Shown here piece after piece: positions 8,416 through 29,439 of a stretch of DNA of 46,530 nt (position 1 is the first letter of the stretch; every line of letters begins with the position of its first letter). Made by a program: the position numbers and the translations under genes. The notes under the pieces were generated by a model. It had not been told where the DNA came from and did not search any database. It saw nothing but the letters and a program-made list of their open reading frames with translations. Source of the stretch: an uncultured Clostridia bacterium (GTDB lineage Bacteria > Bacillota > Clostridia > Oscillospirales > Acutalibacteraceae); the NCBI GenBank assembly GCA_944384995.1, contig CALWVN010000015.1:1-46530 (forward strand). The letters are read 5' to 3'.

Positions 8416-8787
8416 TTATGCGAAAATTACTTCTGCGTTTACGATTTCCACTGCCGATTCACGCAGTGCGTTCATCCTGCCTATCCATTCCATCGGATGT
8501 TCGGCTTTCAGTTCTTCGGTTATGCCCTCATGCTCTGCCATCTGTTCTAGCAGTCGGGAAAACATTGCTTCCGCCTGCTTGTCGATATCCGCAAGATAAC
8601 CGTTCAGCTTACCGCTTGTCAGTAGATTGTAATACCGAACTTTATAGTGCTGTTTAAGATACCTTGCGTGCCGCTGTCCCCATATCCCTATGGGCCTATT
8701 TTCTTCGGCTGGCAGAGTGAGGTTTGGAAAGTAATAGTCGCCTTGCAGTGTATAAGTCCCGCCTGTTTCTTCAAATAATGATTTCAT
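8416..8787 (-). CDS. tnpV: TnpV-family transposon-encoded protein
   Basis: The protein has 123 residues from an ATG at 8787 with GGAGG nine bases upstream; the ATG at 8802 lacks such a site. The features match TnpV, a small protein of unknown biochemical role carried by clostridial mobilizable elements: an N-terminal YTLQGDYYFPNLTLPAEE, then GIWGQRHARYLKQHYKVRYY and LNGYLADIDKQAE. No resolvase, integrase or relaxase gene is found next to it, so it is probably the relic of an element. It marks the border between the A/T-richer left arm and the GC-rich core. Confidence 0.8.
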   Translation of the reverse strand: MKSLFEETGGTYTLQGDYYFPNLTLPAEENRPIGIWGQRHARYLKQHYKVRYYNLLTSGKLNGYLADIDKQAEAMFSRLLEQMAEHEGITEELKAEHPMEWIGRMNALRESAVEIVNAEVIFA

Positions 8788-9110
8788 TGCAGTTTCCTCC
8801 AACTTTAAATTTTAGATTTTCTGCAATATACCGTACCGATTGTCTTTACCACTTGTTTTCAAAACCTTCGTTATGGGACCTCATCATATTGGTCTCCCGC
8901 TTTTCGTATACCGTTTTACTTTGACGGTCTGTTTTAGCTGGCAGAAAGATCCCAAAACCGAAACACTTTACACCGCGCCCTGTGCGCCGACACGGCGGTC
9001 TTTCCTTTTTTACCCTTGGCAGGCCAACCTTCTGCGTGCACAAAACGAAAATCCTCTCCCTGCCGTCATCGTTTTCGGTGTCCGGCAGATTAAGTTGCCG
9101 GCGTTGGTAC
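8788..9110. other. Gene-poor stretch beside the TnpV relic
   Basis: This 323-base stretch has no convincing gene. A minus-strand frame at 8846-9043 could encode 65 basic residues (it contains KTDRQSKTVYEKRE), but it has no clear ribosome site and no family I recognise. It may be the decayed remainder of the element that brought tnpV. Confidence 0.4.
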
Positions 9111-9674
9111 TTACGCCGTCAGCGCTGCGATGATGCTTGAGTACAGCTTTACGGGGTCTTCTAAAAAGTTGTTTTTAACGACCTCAACCTGCATTCTGTC
9201 CGCCACATAGACCGTCAGGCGCATCAGCTCGTTTTGCTCGTCACCCAAAATAAACGTGACGTTATAGCCGCCGTCAGAGAGCTGCTCGGTCAAGATCTTG
9301 TTCTCGCGTTTGTTGCGTGCCAGCGTCATCAGCTTGATCGCCGAATTGACCGCCTGCTCGCGCACCGAGCGCGGCAGCGTGGTCTCCAAAAGCTCCGCCG
9401 ATTCGCGCCCGCGCGCGGTGACGGTGAGCACCTCGTCCTCGTCCTGAATATCGCGGTCAATGTTGCCGGACTTCAAAAGCTCGTCGATCGCTTCGTTCAA
9501 TTCAAAATAATTGGCAAGCCTTTCGCGCAGCACCGCGTCCACCAGCAGATTTTTCGGCACGGGACGGTCTAAGGCGCGCAGAAGGTAGCACACCAAAAGC
9601 CGTATCTCGCTGCGGTTACGCAGCCCGCCTTCTTTCACGCCTGCGTTAAAGGCGTCAAAGGAACTGAAATCCAT
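9111..9674 (-). CDS. DUF4364 family protein, predicted winged-helix regulator
   Basis: The protein has 187 residues and matches the DUF4364 family in both length and layout. The N-terminal half has winged-helix-like segments (SEIRLLVCYLLRALDRPVPK, then ANYFELNEAIDELLKSGNI and VLTVTARGRESAELL). The C-terminal half ends in a beta-rich part (YNVTFILGDEQNELMRLTVY). The family is widespread in Clostridia and poorly studied; a DNA-binding role is inferred from the fold. It lies after alr but has its own promoter, so it need not be part of the D-amino-acid operon. Confidence 0.8.
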   Translation of the reverse strand: MDFSSFDAFNAGVKEGGLRNRSEIRLLVCYLLRALDRPVPKNLLVDAVLRERLANYFELNEAIDELLKSGNIDRDIQDEDEVLTVTARGRESAELLETTLPRSVREQAVNSAIKLMTLARNKRENKILTEQLSDGGYNVTFILGDEQNELMRLTVYVADRMQVEVVKNNFLEDPVKLYSSIIAALTA

Positions 9675-9728
9675 AATTGCTACTCCGTCTTAACGTAAAC
9701 CGAATTGCGAAAGTTAATCGCAACCTAT

Positions 9729-9757
9729 ATTGTAGAGAAAACAGACAGCTTTGTCAA
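9729..9757 (-). promoter_or_regulatory. Sigma-A promoter of the DUF4364 gene
   Basis: On the minus strand TTGACA and TACAAT are separated by exactly 17 bases. The -35 overlaps the alr stop codon. A small TTGCGA/TCGCAA inverted repeat (9705-9723) follows in the leader, close to the expected transcription start, where a regulator could act. Confidence 0.85.
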
Positions 9758-10917
9758 ATAAGTGCGTCCGCAATTTCGGACACGGCGCCGTTTTCGATAT
9801 ACACGCGCGGCACGCGCTTGTTGATGTCACAGCAGAATTCATAGTTGAAGCGGTGGGAAAGGTCTGCGGCCTCCTCGACGGGGATGCGGTTCTCGCCGTC
9901 CGTGCCGATGAGCGTCACCTCGTCACCCTGACGGACGTTCGGGATGTTCGTCACGTCCACCATGAACTGATCCATGCAAACTCTGCCCACAATGGGCGCG
10001 AACTGCCCGTGGATGAGCACGCGCCCGCGATTGGAGAGCGCGCGCGGGTAGCCGTCGCCGTAGCCAACAGGGATCGTCGCGATCACGGTTTTTCCCTTCG
10101 TCACATACGTTGACCCGTAGCTGACTGCAAAGCCCGCGTCCACGGTCTTGACGAACGCGACATGGCTTTTAAGCGACATCGCCGGCACGAGCGGGAAATC
10201 CGCCTTGTTGACTTCCTCCGACGGGTACAGCCCGTAGGTCATGATGCCGCTGCGCACCATATCGAGAAAGTCACCGTCAAAATCTATAATGCCCGCGCTG
10301 TTGCACATGTGCCGCAGCGGGATGTGCACACCGGCCTTCTCAAGCATATCGAGAAAGCCCAAAAACTTTTCCTTTTGGCGGTTGCAGCTCGTTTTGTCCG
10401 CCGCGTCCGCACAGGCAAAATGCGTGAAAATGCCGTCGATCACAAGATCGTCGAGCGCTGCTATGCGCTTGACGGTCTCCACGCCGTCCGCATTCGGCTG
10501 CAAACCGATGCGGCCCATACCGGTGTCCACCTTGATGTGCACGCGCGCGGTTTTCCCGAGCTCTGCGGCGCGCGCGGCATACGCTTTTGCCGTGTCATAT
10601 TGAAAGACCGTGTGCCAAATGTCATGCTCCAGCATCAGGTCAAAATCTGCGGGGAACACAAACCCAAGCACCAAAATGGGGTTGTCGATCCCGTTTCGCC
10701 GTAGCTGCGCCGCCTCCTCGGCAGTTGCCACGCCGAACGCATAGGTGCCGATGCGCTTAAGCGCCTTAGCAACGGGCACAGCGCCGTGCCCGTAAGCGTC
10801 GGTTTTGATGATCGCCATGACCTTTACGTTCGCGCCAACCTTTTGCATGGCGGTTTGTATGTTTTGGCAGATCGCATCCAAGTCGATCTGCGCATATACG
10901 CGCGCGGGAAGCTCCAT
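9754..10917 (-). CDS. alr: Alanine racemase
   Basis: The protein has 387 residues, the usual Alr length. The start at 10917 has GAAGGTAATATCT upstream; a longer frame to 11037 lies inside pxpA and is rejected. The PLP-binding lysine is K38 in IIKTDAYGHG. The second catalytic residue, a Tyr, lies in the SYGSTY segment of the C-terminal beta domain, followed by IPVGYGDGYPR and VGRVCMDQFMVDVT. The enzyme interconverts L- and D-alanine in the cytoplasm, supplying D-Ala for peptidoglycan. Here it is the last gene of an operon with D-amino-acid transaminase, D-glutamate cyclase-type and 5-oxoprolinase genes, 14 bases after pxpA, which suggests a role in D-alanine turnover as well. Confidence 0.95.
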   Translation of the reverse strand: MELPARVYAQIDLDAICQNIQTAMQKVGANVKVMAIIKTDAYGHGAVPVAKALKRIGTYAFGVATAEEAAQLRRNGIDNPILVLGFVFPADFDLMLEHDIWHTVFQYDTAKAYAARAAELGKTARVHIKVDTGMGRIGLQPNADGVETVKRIAALDDLVIDGIFTHFACADAADKTSCNRQKEKFLGFLDMLEKAGVHIPLRHMCNSAGIIDFDGDFLDMVRSGIMTYGLYPSEEVNKADFPLVPAMSLKSHVAFVKTVDAGFAVSYGSTYVTKGKTVIATIPVGYGDGYPRALSNRGRVLIHGQFAPIVGRVCMDQFMVDVTNIPNVRQGDEVTLIGTDGENRIPVEEAADLSHRFNYEFCCDINKRVPRVYIENGAVSEIADALI

Positions 10918-10931
10918 AGATATTACCTTCT

Positions 10932-11699
10932 TTATATGATTTGCGAAAGCGGCGCAAGCGCAATGCCCGCCGCCTGAAGCGCGGAACGGATCTTTTGTAC
11001 GAACAAAAGCGCCTTTTCGCCGTCGCCGTGTACGCATACGGAATCGGCGCGGATGGCGATCTCCTTGCCCGTGATGGTGCGCACCTTGCCCTTCTCTACC
11101 ATGTCGATCACGCGCGCAATCGCTTCGTCCTCGTCCGTGATCATCGCGCCCGGCTTTGTACGCGGCACCAGCGAGCCGTCCTCCTCATACGCGCGGTCGG
11201 CGAATACTTCGCATGCCGTCCGAAGCCCTAAAGCCTTTGCCGCCGCGTGCATTTGGCTCGAAGCAGGACACAGCAGGATAAGGCTGTCATCCGTTTCAGC
11301 AACGGCTTCGCAGACCGCTTTGGCGAGCGCGCCGTCCTTGCCCGCCATGTTGTAAAGCGCGCCGTGCGGCTTGACGTGCTGTAAAGTAAGTCCCCTTGCC
11401 TTGCAGAATGCTTGTAATGCGCCGATTTGGTATTGCACATATGCTTTTGCTTCTTTCGGGCTTGCGGCAAGATTACGCCGCCCGAAGCCCAAAAGATCGG
11501 GAAAGCCCGGATGCGCGCCGATCGCAACGCCGTGTGATTTTAAAAGCGCAACGGTGCGATCCATGACCATCGGGTCGCCCGCGTGAAAGCCGCATGCGAC
11601 ATTTGCCGAGGTGATATACGGCGCGGCCGCTTCATCCGCGCCGATGGTATATGCGCCGAAGCTCTCGCCCATATCGCAGTTTAAGTCGATTTTCGCCAT
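10932..11699 (-). CDS. pxpA: 5-oxoprolinase subunit A (LamB/YcsF family)
   Basis: The protein has 255 residues, full length for the family. Diagnostic segments are KIDLNCDMGESFG at the N-terminus, NVACGFHAGDP, AIGAHPGFPD, and VKPHGALYNM, which carry the conserved acidic and His residues. With PxpB and PxpC it forms the prokaryotic ATP-dependent 5-oxoprolinase that opens 5-oxoproline (pyroglutamate) to glutamate. GGAGGGCAG precedes the ATG. It lies 12 bases after the DUF1445 gene and 14 before alr. All three pxp genes are present and intact in this operon, though not adjacent: DUF1445 separates pxpA from pxpC. Confidence 0.93.
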   Translation of the reverse strand: MAKIDLNCDMGESFGAYTIGADEAAAPYITSANVACGFHAGDPMVMDRTVALLKSHGVAIGAHPGFPDLLGFGRRNLAASPKEAKAYVQYQIGALQAFCKARGLTLQHVKPHGALYNMAGKDGALAKAVCEAVAETDDSLILLCPASSQMHAAAKALGLRTACEVFADRAYEEDGSLVPRTKPGAMITDEDEAIARVIDMVEKGKVRTITGKEIAIRADSVCVHGDGEKALLFVQKIRSALQAAGIALAPLSQII

Positions 11700-11711
11700 A
11701 TGCTGCCCTCC

Positions 11712-12500
11712 TTAAAATTTCAGATCTGTGTTTTTCACGTCCGTGATCAGCATATGCCCCGGTGCGTGCGTAATGCAGAATTCCGGCTTCGAGTGCATCA
11801 CAATGGATTGCGGTGTGACGCCGCACGCCCAGAATACAGGCGTTTCGCCTGAGTTTATCGTGACCGCGTCGCCGAAGTCGGGCTTCGCAAGATCCACGAT
11901 GCCGATCGCCGCCGGGTCGCCGATGTGCACCGGCGTGCCGTGCACGCGGGGCATCGAGGCTGTAATGTTGACCGCCTTTACAATCTGGTCATGGGGCAGG
12001 GGACGCATGCTCACGACCATGTTCCCCGAAAACACGCCTGCCGGTTCACAGGGGATGTTTGTCAGGTACATCGGCACGTTTTTGCCCTCTTCGATATGCC
12101 GCACCGGCACGCCGGATTCCAAAAGCTCCGATTCAAACGAAAACGAACAGCCAATGAGAAACGCCACCAAGTCGTCGCGCCAAAGGTTTTCCACGTTTTC
12201 GTATTCACCGATGAGCTCTCCGCGGCGGTATACGCGGTATTTCGGGATGTCCGACGCGATATTGCAGTCTTTGGCGATTTTTTTGAGATAGGGGCTGCCC
12301 ACGTCCGAAACCTCCAAAATCGGGCAGGGCTTCGGGTTGCGCTGCGCAAACAGCAAAAAGTCGTAGGCTAAATCTTTCGGCAGCACAGCAAGGTTTGCCT
12401 GCGCGTATCCCAGGCACATCCCCGAAGTTTGCGTTGCGATCTCGCCCGCGCGGATCTTCAGCCGCACGTCATGAGGGCTTGTATGTGCGTAAGCGTTCAT
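11712..12500 (-). CDS. DUF1445 (YcsI-type) protein, D-glutamate cyclase N-terminal-domain homologue
   Basis: The protein has 262 residues and is a typical DUF1445 member: an N-terminal [19 protein letters not shown], then [15 protein letters not shown] and [17 protein letters not shown], and near the end [20 protein letters not shown] and [10 protein letters not shown]. It is often annotated as a putative hydro-lyase. From family knowledge, the same domain forms the N-terminal part of the animal mitochondrial D-glutamate cyclase DGLUCY, whose C-terminal part is DUF4392; both halves occur as separate genes in this operon. The start overlaps the pxpC stop in an ATGA. A reaction on D-glutamate or 5-oxoproline is likely but is inferred from homology and context. 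Confidence 0.88.
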
Positions 12501-13453
12501 CGAACCAGATCCTTTCCGTATCGAAGCAGCAGGCGGTCAAGCGCGCGCTGCTCTTTTTTGTAAAGCTTTTCGGCTTGATGTGCAGAGACCGCACGGAAAT
12601 ACACCGTGTCGCCCGGGCGGCGCTGCACGATTTTGGGCAGATCGGCGCTTATGACCGTGGCGATCTTGGCATAACCGCCCGTGGTCTGCCGGTCGGCGAG
12701 CATCACCATCGGCGTGCCTGCGGGCGGTACCTGAATGCTGCCGAACACGATGCCATCGGAGATGATGTCCACGCCGTCCCTGTATTCAATCTTCGCACCG
12801 TCCAATTTACAGCCCATGCGGTCTGTGTTTGCCGTGACACGGTACGGCGCCGATAAAAACGTCTGAAGCCCTGCCTTTGTAAAATAGTCGTCCTGCGGGC
12901 CCAAAACGACGCGCACTTCGGCGGTGTCGCCCGCATAGCTTTCTGCGGGAACGCGCACGCGCGGGAGGCGCTCCGGCGGCAAAGCCGGTTCGCGCAGCGT
13001 GAGCTCGTCGCCCTTTTGCAGCTTGCGTCCATAAAAACCGCCGATGCCGCATTTCAGATTGGTCGAACGGCTGCCGAGCACGGGCTCGACGTCGATGCCG
13101 CCCGCAAAGGCGATATACGTATAAAATCCCGTTTTCGCAGCGGAAAAAGCGAGCACATCCCCTTCATCAGCGAAAACCGTTTGATACATGCGGATCTCTT
13201 CGCCCGAAAGGGTCGCGCCCATATCCGCGCCCGTTACGGCAAACAGGCACGGCGCGGTAAATTGGAATTTCCCGCCGAGCATCGCCATTTCAAGCACCGC
13301 TTCGTCGGTGAAGTTGCCGACTAAAGCGTTCGCGATGCGGTAAGCGCGCTCATCCATCACGCCCGAAGCGTTAAAGCCGAGATACCCGTAGCCGTTTCTG
13401 CCGCCGTCCTGCACGGTGATCAAAGCGCCGGGCGCAAGTACACGTACGCTCAT
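12497..13453 (-). CDS. pxpC: 5-oxoprolinase subunit C (KipA / biotin-dependent carboxyltransferase-like)
   Basis: The protein has 318 residues. It shows [20 protein letters not shown] at the N-terminus, then [45 protein letters not shown], and the conserved C-terminal [17 protein letters not shown] and [17 protein letters not shown]. These mark the KipA/urea-amidolyase C-domain fold, which here is 5-oxoprolinase subunit C. It overlaps pxpB upstream and the DUF1445 gene downstream by 4 bases each, so expression of the three is tightly coupled. No biotin is needed despite the family name. Confidence 0.93.
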
Positions 13454-14169
13454 ACGCTTTCCTCCGTTCTGCGGCAGACGTAAACGCCCGCGTTCACCTG
13501 CTTTTGGATTTCGTCAAACGCCGGCTCGTCAATGGGTACGAATCGGATATATTCGCCTGCCGAAAACAGCACGGGCGGTGTGCGGGACGCGTCGTAGGGC
13601 CGCACGGGTGTGGTGCCGATAAGCCGCCAGCCGCCGGGCGACGGAAGGGGATAAATCCCCGTCTGCTCGCCGCCGATGCCCACCGCGCCCGCATGGATCC
13701 TCGTGCGCGGGGTCGTAAGGCGCGGACAGAAAATGCGTTCGTCCATGCCGCCCAGATACACAAAGCCCGGCAAAAAGCCGAGCATGTAAATGCGATAGTC
13801 CCGCCCTGCGTGCAGGCGCACGACCTCCTCAGCGGAAAGCTTTGCATAGTCGGCGACGTCCTGTAAATCCTCGCCGTTATAGAGCACCGGGACCTCCACT
13901 ACGGTCTTTTGCGTCTGCGTTTCTGCGGAAAGGGTTTTGCAAAGGCGCAAAAGTTTTTTTTCAAGGCGATCTCCCGAAATCAACATGGGGTCAAACAGCA
14001 CGGTCAGGGAACGGAAGGTCGGCACACATTCGCGCACGCCGAAAATGCCTTTTTCGCGCACAACGCGATCGAGCGCATGGACCAGCGCGTTCGTGTGCTC
14101 GTCGATCTCTTTTCCGAATTCCGCCACCAGCGCGCAGTCGCCGCTTCGCAAGATCTCAGGCTGTTCCAT
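13450..14169 (-). CDS. pxpB: 5-oxoprolinase subunit B (KipI family)
   Basis: The protein has 239 residues, the usual size. Key segments are SGDCALVAEFGKEID near the N-terminus, then PVLYNGEDLQDVADYAKLSA, MLGFLPGFVYLGGMD, and PSPGGWRLIGTTPVRPYD. The Bacillus homologue KipI was first described as an inhibitor of sporulation kinase A, but with pxpA and pxpC next to it the 5-oxoprolinase role is the better call. GGAGGCGGT precedes the ATG. The stop overlaps the pxpC start. Confidence 0.92.
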   Translation of the reverse strand: MEQPEILRSGDCALVAEFGKEIDEHTNALVHALDRVVREKGIFGVRECVPTFRSLTVLFDPMLISGDRLEKKLLRLCKTLSAETQTQKTVVEVPVLYNGEDLQDVADYAKLSAEEVVRLHAGRDYRIYMLGFLPGFVYLGGMDERIFCPRLTTPRTRIHAGAVGIGGEQTGIYPLPSPGGWRLIGTTPVRPYDASRTPPVLFSAGEYIRFVPIDEPAFDEIQKQVNAGVYVCRRTEESV

Positions 14170-14203
14170 ACCGCCGCCTCCTTTGCATAGCAGGATTTAT
14201 GTT

Positions 14204-15274
14204 TTATTTTTCCTCAAAAAAACCGAGCTCCAGCGTTTTGTCAAACCAGGTCTTGCACTTGGCTTCGAGCTTCGGCGCGTAGCGGATGCATTCGCGCATT
14301 ATGGTTACGACGGCTTTGTTGGTTTGCAGATCAAAACCGTCGATCGCGGGGATCGTCCAGCCGTACATGTCTACCATGCCGCTGCGCGCCGCCGCTTTTA
14401 GCGCGTCTTCTTCCAACTCTGCGTCGTGCATAATGTCCATATCGCCGCACAAAAACGCAAGCGCTGCGATCAGCGCATAGCAGCCCCAGTCCGAAACGGT
14501 GGCGGTGATGATGTGCTCGGCGCCCACGCGCGCCGCGATCCCGCCGCCGCAGCCGCATTCGCAGGTGCCCTTTGCCGCCCGCGGGATATACCGATCCAGA
14601 TGCTCGGCGATCGTGCCCATACCCAGCTCGTTGCCCAGATCCCCGATGGCGATGTTCAAAACGCCTGCCTTTTGCAGCTTTTCAAATAGGACGTCGCTTT
14701 TCGCTTCCAGCGGCGTGGTGCGTTTCCCTACGGAATTGTGGTATTCGCCGATGCGGTTCTCGCCGGGACATTCAATGGCGACGACCGCCGCGGGCAAGCC
14801 TTGCTCGAGCAGCGCGTCCGTCTGCGGTTCTGCTTCTGCCTTATCTTTCGTGAAAGGGAATACCGCCATGGAAACGGGGTTTGCCCGCAGGTCTTCGATC
14901 GAGGTGTAAAGGTGCAGCCCTACCACGCGCGAGAGCGCTTCCACGGCGGGCAGATTCTCATGCTGGCAGATGACCACGGGCTTTGCACCGAAGGCGAGAA
15001 CGAGCGCGCGCGCAAGGAGCATGGTGCTGACGATGCCGTCCGTTTCCGCCGCTTTGTTGTCTAAGAGCACAAAACCGGTCATCAGATAAACGAGATCATT
15101 TTCTTTGACCGTCTCGAACAAAAGCTTTGCCGCATGCATAGAAAGCGGTTCGCCCGTGTAACGCCGCGCCGCGTCGTAGAGAATGCGGCACACTCCGTAC
15201 CCGCGCGGGTCGAGATTCGCAAGATCATCCAAATTCTGCCCAATGTTATAGGCGGTCAGTTCTTTCTGTGTCAT
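14204..15274 (-). CDS. DUF4392 protein, D-glutamate cyclase C-terminal-domain homologue
   Basis: The protein has 356 residues. Diagnostic DUF4392 segments are TGFVLLDNKAAETDGIVSTM, AVVAIECPGENRIGEYHNSV, AIGDLGNELGMG, CECGCGGGIAARV, ATVSDWGCYALIAALAFLCG, and DGFDLQTNKAVV. In animals this domain is the C-terminal half of mitochondrial D-glutamate cyclase, which removes water from D-glutamate to give 5-oxo-D-proline. Here it is a free-standing protein 11 bases after the transaminase gene and 34 bases before pxpB. The three clustered Cys in CECGCG could bind a metal (inference). A role in D-glutamate cyclisation fits the operon well, but substrate and direction are not proven by sequence. Confidence 0.88.
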   Translation of the reverse strand: MTQKELTAYNIGQNLDDLANLDPRGYGVCRILYDAARRYTGEPLSMHAAKLLFETVKENDLVYLMTGFVLLDNKAAETDGIVSTMLLARALVLAFGAKPVVICQHENLPAVEALSRVVGLHLYTSIEDLRANPVSMAVFPFTKDKAEAEPQTDALLEQGLPAAVVAIECPGENRIGEYHNSVGKRTTPLEAKSDVLFEKLQKAGVLNIAIGDLGNELGMGTIAEHLDRYIPRAAKGTCECGCGGGIAARVGAEHIITATVSDWGCYALIAALAFLCGDMDIMHDAELEEDALKAAARSGMVDMYGWTIPAIDGFDLQTNKAVVTIMRECIRYAPKLEAKCKTWFDKTLELGFFEEK

Positions 15275-15285
15275 AGGCGCCTCCG

Positions 15286-16131
15286 TTACGCTTTGGGGGT
15301 CGTTTCTTTCAGCAGCTTCGCACGGCAGGCGTCCTGCAGCACCTTCAGTGTTGCGGGGTCTTTACCGCCGACGGGCTTGCCGTCGAGCTCACAGGCCGCC
15401 ATGCACTGCGCGCCCGAGGACGAAACAAGGATCTCGTCCGCATCCCACAGCTCGCCGAGCGTGTAGTCGCGCTCTTCTACGGGAATGCCCTTTTCTTTGC
15501 AGATCTCAAGCAGGTGCTTTCTGGAAATGCCCGGCAGCACAAGGTTGTCAAGCTGGTGTGTGATGAACACGCCGTTTTTTAAGATGGAAACGTTCGAGTG
15601 CGCGCATTCCGTAACAAGGTCGCCGCGGTGGAACACCGTCTCCTGACAGCCCTTTTCCCGTGCGCGCTGGCTTGCCATGACGCTCGGGATCAGATTGAGC
15701 GTTTTGATGTTGCAGTGCAGAAAACGCGTGTCCTCCATAGTGATAAGCTTGTATTTCTGCGCCATGTCCTTCATTTCGCACGGCAGACAGTAGATGAGCA
15801 GATTGCTTTTGCCCTCGGGGAAAATGTGCTCGCGAAGCCCGCTGCCGCGTGTGCACTGCCAATAGACGAATTGGTTCGGGTTATCCACCTTCTGCACGCA
15901 ATCGTAAAGCGCAGCTTTGAGCGCTTCGCGCTCCATGGGCGCGGGGATCTCTAAAAGGCGGCAGCTGTTATAAAAGCGATCCAGATGCTCCTCCAGCGCG
16001 AAAATGATATGGTTCACGGAATAGGTTGCGTCATATACGCCGTCGCCGAAGTAGACGCTGCGGTCGCCCATCGGGATGGTCATTTCCTCAATAAGCCCCG
16101 TTTTTCCGTTGTAATAGCCGATGTTTTCCAC
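15286..16131 (-). CDS. dat: D-amino-acid transaminase (PLP class IV)
   Basis: The protein has 281 residues from a GTG at 16131, giving the typical N-terminus MENIGYYNGKTGLIEEM. A TTG at 16152 is the alternative but has no ribosome site, while AGGGG lies before the GTG. The PLP lysine is K143 in HCNIKTLNL. Other class IV marks are GDRSVYFGDGVYDATYSV, the LLEICKEKGIPVEERDYTLG segment and VSSSGAQCMA near the phosphate-binding loop. It exchanges the amino group between D-alanine and D-glutamate via pyruvate and 2-oxoglutarate. As first gene of the operon it would feed D-glutamate to the downstream cyclase-type proteins. A branched-chain transaminase is the alternative family, but D-Ala specificity fits the neighbours better. 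Confidence 0.88.
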   Translation of the reverse strand: MENIGYYNGKTGLIEEMTIPMGDRSVYFGDGVYDATYSVNHIIFALEEHLDRFYNSCRLLEIPAPMEREALKAALYDCVQKVDNPNQFVYWQCTRGSGLREHIFPEGKSNLLIYCLPCEMKDMAQKYKLITMEDTRFLHCNIKTLNLIPSVMASQRAREKGCQETVFHRGDLVTECAHSNVSILKNGVFITHQLDNLVLPGISRKHLLEICKEKGIPVEERDYTLGELWDADEILVSSSGAQCMAACELDGKPVGGKDPATLKVLQDACRAKLLKETTPKA

Positions 16132-16229
16132 GTCTGCAACATCCCCTGACAAAAATTAAAAAATAGAAAGCCAGGCCGTTTTCCTTTGCCCTTCCTTGTG
16201 CATGTGAAATACGACCCGACTTCTTTTTC

Positions 16230-16258
16230 ATTATAGTATGCGAAAGGAAAGGTGTCAA
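16230..16258 (-). promoter_or_regulatory. Perfect-consensus sigma-A promoter of the D-amino-acid operon
   Basis: On the minus strand TTGACA and TATAAT are separated by exactly 17 bases, a match to the full consensus. It drives dat and the genes after it. The leader is about 90 bases, with no clear hairpin or operator found. Such a strong promoter suggests high, perhaps constitutive expression. Confidence 0.9.
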
Positions 16259-16407
16259 CTAAAAACGCTTTTTTTCACGAAAATTTTTGCGTGCGCGCAG
16301 CAGTCATGCATACTGCATAACGGCAAAAAACTTTCAAATACTATCACAGAAAACGGCGCGCGGAGACTTGCCGCGAGCAAATCAAAAAAGACAGGAGAAC
16401 GATCGAC

Positions 16408-17943
16408 ATGCAGGCGCAAACGCTTGTGCAAATGAAACATGTGCGCAAGGAGTTCCCGGGTGTGACGGCGCTTTCGGATATGTCCTTTGACATCCGCGCG
16501 GGTGAGGTGCACGTGCTGCTCGGTGAAAACGGCGCGGGCAAATCGACGCTGATGAAAATTTTGAGCGGCGTGCACAAGCCGACCTCCGGCAGCATTGTGA
16601 TCGACGGAAAAGAATATAAAAGCCTCACCCCGCACGATGCGGACCGGCTCGGGATCCGCGTGATCTATCAGGAACTGAGTGTGATCCCGACGCTTTCCAT
16701 TCGGGAAAACCTGTTTGTCGGCAGGCTGCCCGTGAAAAAACGTGCGTTTTTTCATACGGTGGATTACGGCAAAATGCAGCGCCGCGCGGAAGCATTGCTC
16801 CAAAGGGTAGGGATGCACCGCGATGCGCGTACGCCCGTTGAGGATCTGAGCATTTCGGAAAAACAGCAGGTCGAGATCGCAAAAGCCCTTGCCGTGGACA
16901 GCCGCGTCATTATTATGGACGAGCCGACCGCTTCGCTGACGCATGAAGAAGTCCGGCACCTGTTTGCGGTCATCCGCGCGCTCAAAGCGCAGGGCAGGGG
17001 GATCGTATTCATTTCCCATAAGCTGCCGGAGATCCTGGAGATCGGCGACCGCGTGACCGTGCTCAAGGACGGGGCGAACGTCGGCACGAAGCAGATCACC
17101 GACGTAACGGCAGACGACCTTGTGACCATGATGGTCGGGCGGCAGATCCGCAAGAACTATCAAAACGAAAGTGCACAAAACGGCTTCGAGCAGGAAGAGG
17201 TGCTGTTCGAGGTGAAGGGGCTTTCGCGGCGTGACGGCAAGGCGCGCGCCGTTTCTTTCCGCCTGCACAAAGGCGAGATCTTAGGTTTCGCGGGGCTTGT
17301 GGGCGCGGGCAGAAGCGAGCTGATGAATGCCGTGTTCGGCGCGGCGCCGAAGCGGTCGGGGAAGATCCTGTTGCACGGGAAAGAGATCCGCACGAAAAGC
17401 CCCTATCAGGCGATTCGAAACGGACTTGCCATGGTGACTGAAAACCGCCGAGAAACGGGGTTCTTCCATAATTTTGACATCAAGCAGAACATTTCTCTGC
17501 TGCCGTTTGTCAAAACTGCGCGCGGCGGCGGGACGCTGGGACTCATCGACCGCCGCTTTGAAAAGCGTTGTGCCGAGCAGCAGCGCAAGGCCTTGCGCAT
17601 CAAGTGCGCTTCCGTAAACCAACCGGTCACGGAGCTCTCGGGCGGGAACCAGCAAAAAGTCATTTTGGGCAGATGGCTTGCGGCGCAGTCCGAAATTTTG
17701 ATCTTTGATGAGCCGACCAAGGGCATAGACGTCGGCAGCAAAGCGGAGATCTATGCGCTCATGCGGGAGCTCGCGGACAGCGGCAAGGGCGTTTTGGTGG
17801 TCTCTTCGGAACTCCCCGAGCTGCTCGCCGTGTGTGACACCATTGCCGTTTACCGCGAAGGGGAGATCGTCCGTGTTTTCCCGCACAGCGCGGCAACAGA
17901 GGAAAACATCGTGCTGGCTGCTACGGCCGGGGGCACAGAATGA
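16408..17943 (+). CDS. alsA: Sugar ABC transporter ATP-binding protein, D-allose type
   Basis: The protein has 511 residues with two fused ABC domains (RbsA/MglA/AlsA layout). The N-terminal domain has Walker A GENGAGKST (about residue 39), LSISEKQQVEIAKAL, and Walker B IIMDEPTASLT. The C-terminal domain has the degenerate P-loop usual in this family (GLVGAGRSELMNAVFG) and a good signature LSGGNQQKVILGRWL with Walker B ILIFDEPTKGID. It powers import of a pentose or hexose; allose is inferred from the operon partners. AGGAGA lies upstream of the ATG. No convincing promoter was found in 16259-16400, although one must exist because the upstream operon is divergent. Confidence 0.9.
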   Translation: MQAQTLVQMKHVRKEFPGVTALSDMSFDIRAGEVHVLLGENGAGKSTLMKILSGVHKPTSGSIVIDGKEYKSLTPHDADRLGIRVIYQELSVIPTLSIRENLFVGRLPVKKRAFFHTVDYGKMQRRAEALLQRVGMHRDARTPVEDLSISEKQQVEIAKALAVDSRVIIMDEPTASLTHEEVRHLFAVIRALKAQGRGIVFISHKLPEILEIGDRVTVLKDGANVGTKQITDVTADDLVTMMVGRQIRKNYQNESAQNGFEQEEVLFEVKGLSRRDGKARAVSFRLHKGEILGFAGLVGAGRSELMNAVFGAAPKRSGKILLHGKEIRTKSPYQAIRNGLAMVTENRRETGFFHNFDIKQNISLLPFVKTARGGGTLGLIDRRFEKRCAEQQRKALRIKCASVNQPVTELSGGNQQKVILGRWLAAQSEILIFDEPTKGIDVGSKAEIYALMRELADSGKGVLVVSSELPELLAVCDTIAVYREGEIVRVFPHSAATEENIVLAATAGGTE

Positions 17944-17957
17944 AAGGGGAACGCAAC

Positions 17958-18926
17958 ATGGCTTCTATAGAACGAGCAAAGGAAAAACCAACCTTTAACA
18001 CGCTTTGGCAGCGCTTCGGCACCTTCGGTATCTTGATCCTGCTGCTTGCGATCCTTGCCGTTGCACGCCCCGGGCACTTTTTCTCCGTCTCGACGGTCAC
18101 GCAGATCTTGGCGCAAAGCTCCGTAAATATTTTGATCGCGCTCGGTGAATTTTTTGCGATCCTGATTGCGGGCATCGATCTTTCCGTCGGCTCTGTCGTT
18201 GCATTGACGGGCATGGTGACCGCGCAGCTGATGGTGGCAGGCGTAAACCCGCTGCTGAGCCTTGTGCTCGGCGTCCTGCTCGGCGGCGTGCTGGGGCTTA
18301 TCAACGGCGTACTTGTCAACCGTACGGGGCTGCACCCATTCATCATTACGCTGGGCACACAGGCGATCCTGCGCGGCATCACGCTGATCATCTCAAATTC
18401 CAGCGCTGTGTTCGGCTTTCCCGCAAGCTTTACGCGCACCATTTCCGTCAATGTGTTCGGGCTCGTCCCCTTAGTCGCGATTATTGCCCTTTTGACGGCG
18501 GCAGTGCTCTCGTTTTTGACGCGGCAGACGAAGCTCGGCAGAAACATTTACGCCCTCGGCGGCAACCGTGAAGCGGCGTGGTACGCGGGGATCAATGTAA
18601 AGCTGCACACCTTGATCGTGTTTATGATCTCGGGCCTTTGCGCGGGCCTTGCGGGCGTGGTGCTCCTCGGGCGCGTCGGTTCGGCGGAGCCCGCGGCGGC
18701 GACCGGCTTTGAAACGTATGCCATCGCGGCGGCAATCATCGGCGGCACCAGCTTTTTCGGCGGCAAGGGCAAAATTTTCGGCGTAGTCATCGGCGGCTTT
18801 ATCATCGGGGTCATCAATTTCGGTATGAACCTGCTGTCGCTGCCGAGCACCCTGCAGCAGGTTGTTATGGGCGCGCTCATCATCGGCTCCGTTGCGCTCG
18901 ACCGTTTTGTGGCGAATAAGAAGTAA
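17958..18926 (+). CDS. alsC: Sugar ABC transporter permease, D-allose type
   Basis: The protein has 322 residues from an ATG at 17958 with AAAGGGGAACGCAAC upstream. An ATG at 17940 that overlaps the alsA stop in an ATGA is the alternative and would add six residues. There are about ten hydrophobic segments. RbsC/AlsC-family marks are IAGIDLSVGSVVALTGMV, NRTGLHPFIITLGTQAILRG, GRNIYALGGNREAAWYAGI, and AIAAAIIGGTSFFGGKG. It forms the membrane channel with the alsA product, taking the sugar from the lipoprotein binding protein encoded four genes downstream. Confidence 0.9.
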   Translation: MASIERAKEKPTFNTLWQRFGTFGILILLLAILAVARPGHFFSVSTVTQILAQSSVNILIALGEFFAILIAGIDLSVGSVVALTGMVTAQLMVAGVNPLLSLVLGVLLGGVLGLINGVLVNRTGLHPFIITLGTQAILRGITLIISNSSAVFGFPASFTRTISVNVFGLVPLVAIIALLTAAVLSFLTRQTKLGRNIYALGGNREAAWYAGINVKLHTLIVFMISGLCAGLAGVVLLGRVGSAEPAAATGFETYAIAAAIIGGTSFFGGKGKIFGVVIGGFIIGVINFGMNLLSLPSTLQQVVMGALIIGSVALDRFVANKK

Positions 18927-18941
18927 GAAGAGGACAAAGCT

Positions 18942-19625
18942 ATGAAACCTATGTTTAATCCGTCCTTAATGTGTATGGATTTTTTGGATATGCGAAACCA
19001 GGCGGAGATTCTCAATACCCGCTGTGATATGTACCACGCGGATGTCATGGACGGGCATTACGTCAAAAATGTCACGCTCTCGCCCGACTTCATCCGCGCG
19101 TTTCACACGGTTGCGCAAAAGCCGATGGACTGTCACCTCATGGTGACGGACCCCGATCTGTTTTTAGAACCGCTTGCCGAGGCGGGCGCGGATTATCTTT
19201 GCGTGCAGGCGGAGACGGTCAACCGCGATGCGTTCCGCATCCTCAATAAAATCGAAGCCCTCGGCTGCAAAACGGGTGTGGTGCTTAATCCTGCCACGCC
19301 GCTTGAGTTTGTGCGCCATTATTTGGAGCGCGTCGACATTTTAACGATCATGACCGTAGACCCCGGCTTTGCCGGGCAGCCGTTTATCCCCGAAATGCTC
19401 GAAAAGCTCCGTGAGGCGCGCGAGTTTAAGGAAAAGTACGGCTGCAAATATCTTATCGAAGTGGACGGCTCGTGCAACGAACGCACCTTCAAGGCCTTGT
19501 ATGACGCGGGCGCGGAGGTTTTTATTGTCGGTACGTCGGGGCTTTTCTCGAAAGACCGCGACTTGAAGCTTGCATGGGAAAAGATGCTGGCGGATTTCCG
19601 CAATGCGACCGGGGAATCGGTTTAA
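18942..19625 (+). CDS. alsE: D-allulose-6-phosphate 3-epimerase (ribulose-phosphate epimerase family)
   Basis: The protein has 227 residues and is very like E. coli AlsE from memory: NPSLMCMDFLDM at the start, then HADVMDGHYVKN with metal and catalytic residues, PMDCHLMVTDPDL, IMTVDPGFAGQPFIPEMLEK, and IEVDGSCNERTFKALYDAGA plus VFIVGTSGLFS. It converts D-allulose 6-phosphate to D-fructose 6-phosphate, the last step before glycolysis. Ribulose-phosphate 3-epimerase is the alternative, but the SLMCMD and DGSCN segments and the operon favour AlsE. GAAGAGGACAAAGCT precedes the ATG. It lies 15 bases after the permease. Confidence 0.9.
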   Translation: MKPMFNPSLMCMDFLDMRNQAEILNTRCDMYHADVMDGHYVKNVTLSPDFIRAFHTVAQKPMDCHLMVTDPDLFLEPLAEAGADYLCVQAETVNRDAFRILNKIEALGCKTGVVLNPATPLEFVRHYLERVDILTIMTVDPGFAGQPFIPEMLEKLREAREFKEKYGCKYLIEVDGSCNERTFKALYDAGAEVFIVGTSGLFSKDRDLKLAWEKMLADFRNATGESV

Positions 19626-29100: not shown

Positions 29101-29190
29101 CCGTCTGAAATCCGAAACGTGTTTTGGCATTTTGACGGGTGCACATTTTTGTGTTTTGTGCTATACTGTATTTGAAGGATATTTCAACTG

Positions 29191-29439
29191 CAAGGACGGA
29201 GAGAAGTAGCAAAGCCTTTTGCCCGCCCAGAGAGAAAGCGCCACGGGCTGCGAGCGCTTTTGCGGGGCACTTTGCGAAATGCACTCCCGAGCAGGCGGGG
29301 GGAAGAGAATGTATCCCCGCCCGTTTTGGCCGCGTTAAGGCAAACGAGCCGTTCCCGAAAAGGGAGCGGGAAACGAAGTGGAACCGCGATATTGTCGCCT
29401 TCGTCGCGCCCGAAAGGGGCGGCGGAGGCTTGTTTTTTT
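29191..29439 (+). promoter_or_regulatory. T-box riboswitch, cysteine-specific
   Basis: The leader starts with the T-box opening GGACGGAGAGAAGTAGC (29194-29210). GCAAAG (29209-29214) pairs with CTTTGC (29270-29275) to make stem I. A UGC (Cys) triplet at 29280-29282, followed by A, sits on the 3' side of the specifier loop after GAA. The T-box core AAGTGGAACCGCG is at 29376-29388, and a terminator hairpin follows. Uncharged tRNA-Cys would stabilise the antiterminator and switch on cysE-cysS. An extended -10 (TGCTATACT at 29159-29167) is the likely promoter; no good -35 was found. Specifier assignment is supported by the downstream genes. Confidence 0.9.
29397..29439 (+). terminator. T-box attenuator terminator
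   Basis: A GC-rich hairpin (GCCTTCGTCGCGCCC against GGGGCGGCGGAGGC, GAAA loop) is followed by TTGTTTTTTT. It is the terminator of the leader and overlaps the start of the antiterminator strand, 12 bases before cysE. Confidence 0.85.

Follow-up and report, generated by a model that had tools for sequence, protein, structure and literature searches.

A clostridial operon that joins the two halves of D-glutamate cyclase to 5-oxoprolinase: a candidate route from D-amino acids to L-glutamate

Seven intact genes, in the order dat-DUF4392-pxpB-pxpC-DUF1445-pxpA-alr, lie together on the minus strand of a 46,530-nucleotide stretch of DNA (hereafter the window) from an uncultured Clostridia bacterium of the family Acutalibacteraceae (assembly GCA_944384995.1, contig CALWVN010000015.1). 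Judged from gene content and protein families, this operon has about an even chance of being a one-way funnel that would carry D-amino acids to L-glutamate. D-Alanine and D-glutamate are abundant where bacterial cell walls turn over, for example in the gut, and the oxygen-dependent oxidases that burn these compounds are of no use to anaerobes. The operon is a conserved cluster for a pathway assembled from known families, in which one step may hold a new enzyme activity.

In the proposed route, Dat would move amino groups from D-alanine or other D-amino acids to 2-oxoglutarate, yielding D-glutamate along with pyruvate (or another keto acid). DUF4392, which has a two-metal site, and DUF1445 would then act as a split cyclase, converting D-glutamate to 5-oxoproline as the fused animal enzyme does. 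Because the animal cyclase yields 5-oxo-D-proline and the L form is the one for which PxpABC has been described, the stereocentre must be inverted by one of the enzymes; with no inversion, the route becomes a futile cycle or stops. The ring would most likely be inverted by DUF1445: this protein tracks the oxoprolinases and DUF4392 tracks Dat and Alr, so DUF4392 is placed at cyclisation and DUF1445 at inversion. PxpABC would spend ATP to open 5-oxo-L-proline to L-glutamate. Alr, where present, would connect the L-alanine and D-alanine pools. What the analysis shows is gene content, intactness, conservation, the partition of gene neighbourhoods, and conserved active-site residues; every reaction along with its direction, the inversion step most of all, is inferred.

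The sequence-only reading that preceded this analysis described a single minus-strand run behind one promoter, with gaps no larger than 34 bases and two ATGA overlaps, and each of these points is confirmed. The intergenic spacings are 11, 34, 12, and 14 bases, and overlaps of 4 bases join pxpB to pxpC and pxpC to DUF1445 (Table 1). Four promoter-like sites occur within positions 9550-16450, compared with 3.2 expected from shuffled sequence, and only that at 16258-16230 is perfect. Another, at 9757-9729, precedes the gene that follows alr, which encodes DUF4364 (9111-9674); alr is therefore plausibly the last gene of the operon. Two gene starts differ from those in the mechanical list of open reading frames (ORFs). 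The dat start at GTG 16131 agrees with homologues better than the listed TTG 16152, and alr most likely begins at ATG 10917, its mechanical ORF beginning at 11037. (Family scans of alr used positions 9754-10923, two codons longer than the ATG 10917 start.) The source assembly comprises 1.89 Mb and is 86% complete.

Families were assigned by comparing Pfam and NCBIfam profile scores with the model cut-offs, and the scores uphold the gene names given earlier. Both D-glutamate cyclase domains, D-Glu_cyclase (PF07286, which is DUF1445) and GLUCM-like_C (PF14336, which is DUF4392), exceed their Pfam cut-offs. The window encodes no fused cyclase: the two domains are separate genes, with pxpB and pxpC in between. 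The models for PxpA (NF003814) and PxpB (TIGR00370) are both passed, and PxpC satisfies the broader TIGR00724 model but not the PxpC equivalog NF045499 (245.8 bits; cut-off 500). Dat falls below the cut-off of TIGR01121 (277.45 bits), which nevertheless scores highest among the 19 models listed; this protein is thus at most a divergent D-amino-acid transaminase. Its closest match in the PDB is 1daa. The canonical Dat motif comprises, in 1DAA numbering, F26, Y31, V/A33, YxQ at 88-90, RxH at 98-100, and the catalytic lysine (PMC10003956). The window Dat, with residues counted from TTG 16152, aligns to it with F35, Y40, A42, Y97/Q99, R107/H109, and catalytic K150; only at motif position 35, where K, R, P, or T is expected, does it differ, with Tyr44.

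The predicted structure of DUF4392 (predicted local distance difference test score, pLDDT, 96.5) matches the fold of TON_0340, a relative of solved structure, with an E value of 7.7e-19. Residues E59 and D157 of TON_0340, changes of which abolish its activity, correspond on the alignment to E77 and D212 of the window protein and are invariant in 77 aligned sequences. Moreover, the DUF4392 proteins of these operons carry a CxCGC motif in an insert (residues 238-242; window 14549-14563, minus strand). The insert is missing from short-type DUF4392 (loci L018, L019, and L021); among the longer forms, C238 hardly varies.

To examine the distribution of the operon, a DUF4392 alignment was used to scan named genomes of bacteria and archaea; loci were counted among the best 80 of 545 confirmed relatives, with gene content determined by tblastn. 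DUF4392 sharing at least 45% identity with the window protein (the operon type) occurs at 68 of the 80 loci, 40 of which have room on both sides. The six core genes are together in 33 of these 40 (four have five genes, three have fewer) and all seven in 19: Alr is the variable member, since of the 33 loci with the complete core, 19 also have it. The exact order of the window recurs in 16 of the 40, excluding the possibility, raised by the sequence-only reading, that it is unique to this strain. Twelve show the order lacking alr, and three a Clostridium variant (dat, DUF4392, DUF1445, pxpA, alr, pxpB, pxpC). Carriers are chiefly Clostridia, including Clostridium tyrobutyricum, Lacrimispora, Caproicibacter, and Eubacterium coprostanoligenes, plus spirochaetes, where the operon is present in four bins (two ending at contig ends); a Selenomonadaceae bin has five genes, without dat. 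The closest named locus among those best 80 belongs to another uncultured Clostridia bacterium (genome G100), with a DUF4392 97% identical. In a quick tree of 66 rows, operon-type DUF4392 forms one supported clade spanning Bacillota and Spirochaetota (SH-like approximate likelihood ratio test, SH-aLRT, 99).

Within the family of the window, spread is patchy. DUF4392 exceeds the cut-off in 10 of 100 genomes, being of the operon type in seven and of a distant type in three; in four of the seven, one of them that of the window, the complete gene set occurs in an identical order. DUF4392 is missing from G098, a genome that belongs to the same genus and is 99% complete.

Gene neighbourhoods tend to split into two groups, Dat or Alr with DUF4392, and DUF1445 with PxpABC. 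In a phylum sample of 199 genomes, DUF1445 was found in 35, at 36 places, of which 32 neighbourhoods were read (the window's own and three partial ones being excluded); pxpA is visible in 25 of the 32. On the other side, of the 58 operon-type loci with room, 51 have Dat upstream of DUF4392. Individual genomes divide along the same line: G048 has dat-DUF4392 on one contig, pxpA-DUF1445 on another, and PxpB on a third; G043 has dat-pxpB-pxpC-DUF1445-pxpA-alr without DUF4392, a distant DUF4392 being on another contig; and locus L169 has five of the genes, namely pxpA-DUF1445-pxpB-pxpC together with a distant DUF4392.

Plasmid records matched DUF1445 (240 records) and DUF4392 (64 records), and ten places (4 + 6) were opened. 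Four of five plasmid DUF1445 neighbourhoods contain oxoprolinase genes. Plasmids of Lactiplantibacillus, Klebsiella, and Shinella place DUF1445 beside genes for PxpA, PxpBC-like proteins, and biotin carboxylase. On a Sulfitobacter plasmid, the gene shares a run on one strand with those of a TRAP transporter and a hydantoinase B/oxoprolinase, the latter of a kind unrelated to PxpABC; this second kind of oxoprolinase was seen beside DUF1445 once. In the plasmid clusters L110, L112, and L113, an NRAMP transporter joins PxpA, DUF1445, PxpBC-like proteins, and biotin carboxylase; the plasmids are mobilizable, conjugative, and non-mobilizable. The presence of biotin carboxylase suggests that the oxoprolinase of these clusters is a carboxylating variant.

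Uptake genes also lie nearby. LIV-type permease genes are found within 4 kb of 12 of the 80 loci, a count that may be low because the ORF listing behind it lost nine loci to wrong frames, and at locus L029 a Na+:alanine symporter lies downstream of the operon. Both fit import of substrate.

YcsI of Bacillus subtilis, which we take to be a DUF1445 protein, is encoded in the ycsFG-ycsI-kipIA operon (pxpA, mntG, DUF1445, pxpB, pxpC), presumably without dat or alr. As in the window, DUF1445 there accompanies all three 5-oxoprolinase genes (an association described in PMC10448178); unlike the window operon, that of B. subtilis carries a manganese importer. The B. subtilis control genome matches PF07286, and PF14336 was found in none of 14 control genomes, B. 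subtilis among them. Corynebacterium glutamicum pxpTABC has PxpABC in common with the operon; there, PxpABC opens 5-oxo-L-proline to L-glutamate and is accompanied by an importer, according to PMC13274462, the main text of which contains none of the terms D-proline, DUF1445, hydro-lyase, or D-glutamate.

The animal D-glutamate cyclase (DGLUCY, C14orf159 / 9030617O03Rik) has both of its halves represented in the operon. The sequence-only reading had recognized DUF1445 and DUF4392 as the two parts of this enzyme, in agreement with their Pfam names and with PMC5339696, which reports that the mouse enzyme converts D-glutamate to 5-oxo-D-proline and that its loss raises D-glutamate. In contrast to the animal enzyme, the halves in the operon are separate proteins whose genes stand among those for Dat, PxpABC, and often Alr, and the operon needs an exit to PxpABC. 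One table row of PMC11580864, as we read it, gives no full-length and six split homologues of the human cyclase in gut microbes. Routes through DadA/DadX (DadA is linked to growth on D-glutamate in PMC6131576) and through D-amino-acid oxidase also turn D-amino acids into common metabolites. Those routes are oxidative, whereas the proposed operon route would need no external electron acceptor and would spend ATP. The earlier statement that the complete set had not been described holds for the whole, since no description of all seven genes was found in the open-licence literature; it does not hold for the parts, as both the company of DUF1445 with pxpABC and the split cyclase homologues were known.

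What would be new is the inversion. Three DUF1445 cysteines, C59, C118, and C226, are invariant in 91 of 91 aligned sequences, and in the predicted structure C118 and C226 each sit between a strand and a helix. In the two-cysteine racemases and epimerases, to which a comparison would extend in mechanism only, a pair of invariant cysteines lies on opposite sides of the active site. We tentatively propose, while thinking it somewhat doubtful, that DUF1445 could be a cofactor-free, cysteine-based 5-oxoproline epimerase. With a DUF4392 cyclase and PxpABC it would form a one-way converter of D-glutamate to L-glutamate that is independent of the glutamate racemase MurI; with Dat, it would allow anaerobes to use D-amino acids non-oxidatively. 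Such an epimerase, if real, would account for the association of DUF1445 with 5-oxoprolinases of two unrelated kinds.

Several points weigh against the funnel and the epimerase within it. No paper naming a 5-oxoproline epimerase was found, making the inversion step a postulate, and the reported product of the animal cyclase is the D form (PMC5339696). An internal repeat in DUF1445 finds no sequence support (hhalign probability 0.1%). MurI, present in some of the genomes discussed below, could interconvert D- and L-glutamate without ATP. Seven of the 32 DUF1445 neighbourhoods have no pxpA in view: two have neither partner, and five are bare DUF1445-DUF4392 pairs. (The five pairs themselves also offer points in favour of the route: DUF1445 comes first, as in the domain order of the animal fusion, and all five genomes have PxpB beyond the region read, which in G173 means some 12 kb along the same contig.) The annotated neighbours of DUF1445 on a Sinorhizobium plasmid include no oxoprolinase gene, and genome G354 has DUF1445 with neither PxpA nor PxpB. 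G044, L062, and L063 are reduced to DUF4392-alr, and at L070 there is DUF4392 with no alr in view; since the genomes of all four lack DUF1445 and PxpA, DUF4392 can serve outside the proposed route. Distant DUF4392 genes adjoin yet other genes: an Amdase gene with UbiD, a SelA-like gene, and a dehydratase gene. Finally, TON_0340 has been published as a weak manganese-dependent phosphatase.

That phosphatase activity, the varied company of DUF4392 outside the operon, and the label 'putative hydro-lyase' that NCBI still gives DUF1445 would suit an alternative in which the two proteins act on another substrate, such as a phosphorylated or otherwise modified small molecule, with the operon as a more loosely assembled cluster for nitrogen salvage. 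We regard this as unlikely, given that the fused mouse protein acts on D-glutamate, which rises upon its loss (PMC5339696), and that DUF1445 lies with oxoprolinase genes in 25 of the 32 neighbourhoods.

A different challenge comes from the supply of D-amino acids to the cell wall. No Alr other than that of the operon was found in the genome (by TIGR00492, at the stated 86% completeness). No MurI scores over the cut-off there (a single match of 53.6 bits versus 146.65) or in G100 (54.7 bits), G098 has no match, and murD is present in the genome of the window. A purely salvage role is therefore doubtful in this genome, in which Dat and Alr may also feed the cell wall with D-glutamate and D-alanine. 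(The one weak match to the MurI model in this genome is an Asp/Glu-racemase-like protein at locus L002, 1429-2145, minus strand, and the gene beside it resembles an ATP-grasp enzyme by eye.) The rival account goes further: the operon would mainly make D-alanine (through Alr) and D-glutamate (through Dat) for a wall built without MurI, and DUF4392, DUF1445, and PxpABC would trim excess D-glutamate or recycle 5-oxoproline from side reactions.

Comparison of genomes gives this account some support. In the family sample, MurI over the cut-off is lacking in 8 of 10 DUF4392 carriers versus 22 of 90 others (Fisher p 0.0009, uncorrected for kinship), and in 5 of 7 with the operon type. Among genomes at least 90% complete, with a split MurI counted as present, it is lacking in 6 of 8 carriers versus 12 of 67 others, and in 4 of 6 with the operon type (counts taken by hand; p 0.002 and, for the operon type, 0.019, uncorrected for kinship). 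MurI was also sought in the genomes of 50 of 71 loci, those showing both dat and DUF4392 (L026, which also shows both, was left out): 24 have it, and 26 have none over the cut-off. MurI is lacking in 12 of 21 genomes with alr in the operon versus 3 of 15 without (p 0.04), a comparison of 36 of the 50 genomes, 14 with loci contig-cut or otherwise laid out being set aside.

On the tree, however, the association of alr with lack of MurI yields only four independent pairs on supported branches and no significant trend. The 24 MurI-bearing genomes, moreover, include that of C. tyrobutyricum, which has alr in the operon. Some relatives apparently make D-glutamate by other means, because G098 lacks MurI, DUF4392, and this Dat alike; DapF can make D-glutamate in Chlamydia (PMC5885031). 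Several near-complete genomes of the family (G098, G002, G009, G018, G036, G040, G057, G063, and others) have neither MurI over the cut-off nor operon-type Dat. The absence of MurI from the genome of the window must also be read against its incompleteness. Supply may thus be an additional, local task; it cannot be what the operon serves in general, given the 24 genomes with MurI and the lack of independent support on the tree, and as an account of the whole operon we find it rather improbable. The sequence-only reading had D-alanine and D-glutamate turned into L-glutamate and pyruvate: this flow is still plausible. That reading took no account of the stereochemistry, and in this genome the single Alr found and the lack of a MurI over the cut-off weigh against salvage pure and simple.

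The route might also run backwards, with 5-oxo-L-proline epimerised and the cyclase pair reversed to make D-glutamate while PxpABC competes for the L form, an arrangement that would suit the 26 operon-bearing genomes without MurI over the cut-off. Katane in 2018 reportedly found that mouse D-glutamate cyclase runs both ways, but also, it is said, that Mn2+ abolishes the reverse reaction and that D-glutamate is the better substrate. The alanine and LIV-type importers beside some operons also fit amino-acid uptake better, and we consider the reverse direction very improbable.

Table 1. Features of the operon region, in window coordinates.
Feature	Position	Strand	Evidence
Sigma-70-type promoter of the operon, TTGACA-N17-TATAAT	16230..16258	-	consensus match 12/12, spacer 17
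dat	15286..16131	-	PF01063 149.6 bits; TIGR01121 216.6 bits
DUF4392 / GLUCM-like_C, homologous to the animal D-glutamate cyclase (C-terminal half)	14204..15274	-	PF14336 297.7 bits, cut-off 27.9
pxpB, 5-oxoprolinase subunit	13450..14169	-	TIGR00370 190.2 bits, cut-off 145.55
pxpC, 5-oxoprolinase/urea amidolyase-type carboxyltransferase subunit	12497..13453	-	TIGR00724 296.5 bits, cut-off 230.2
DUF1445 / D-Glu_cyclase, homologous to the animal D-glutamate cyclase (N-terminal half); candidate 5-oxoproline epimerase	11712..12500	-	PF07286 236.8 bits, cut-off 25
pxpA, 5-oxoprolinase subunit (LamB/YcsF)	10932..11699	-	PF03746 353.3 bits; NF003814 380.4 bits, cut-off 226
alr, alanine racemase	9754..10917	-	TIGR00492 388 bits, cut-off 168
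Promoter of the next gene, DUF4364	9729..9757	-	consensus match 11/12, spacer 17; overlaps the end of alr

Elsewhere in the window, a TnpV transposon-encoded protein (8416-8802, minus strand) lies downstream of the operon and DUF4364. Genes divergent from the operon (16408-19625, plus strand) encode a D-allose ABC transporter-like system, its permease above the model cut-off and its ATP-binding protein below, and a D-allulose-6-phosphate 3-epimerase. A T-box leader (102.6 bits) is found at 29184-29405 on the plus strand. In other genomes, distant DUF4392 genes adjoin a gene of the arylmalonate-decarboxylase/Asp-Glu-racemase family (L090, L092, L096, L101, and L107), with UbiD also in L092, L101, and L107 and an aminotransferase also in L096 and L107; these clusters are perhaps an undescribed pathway.

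If the proposed route is true, it would give a definite job to two large families that still go by 'domain of unknown function' and 'putative hydro-lyase', and would hint at separate tasks for the two halves of the human D-glutamate cyclase. Moreover, it would bear on how bacteria without glutamate racemase balance their pool of D-glutamate.

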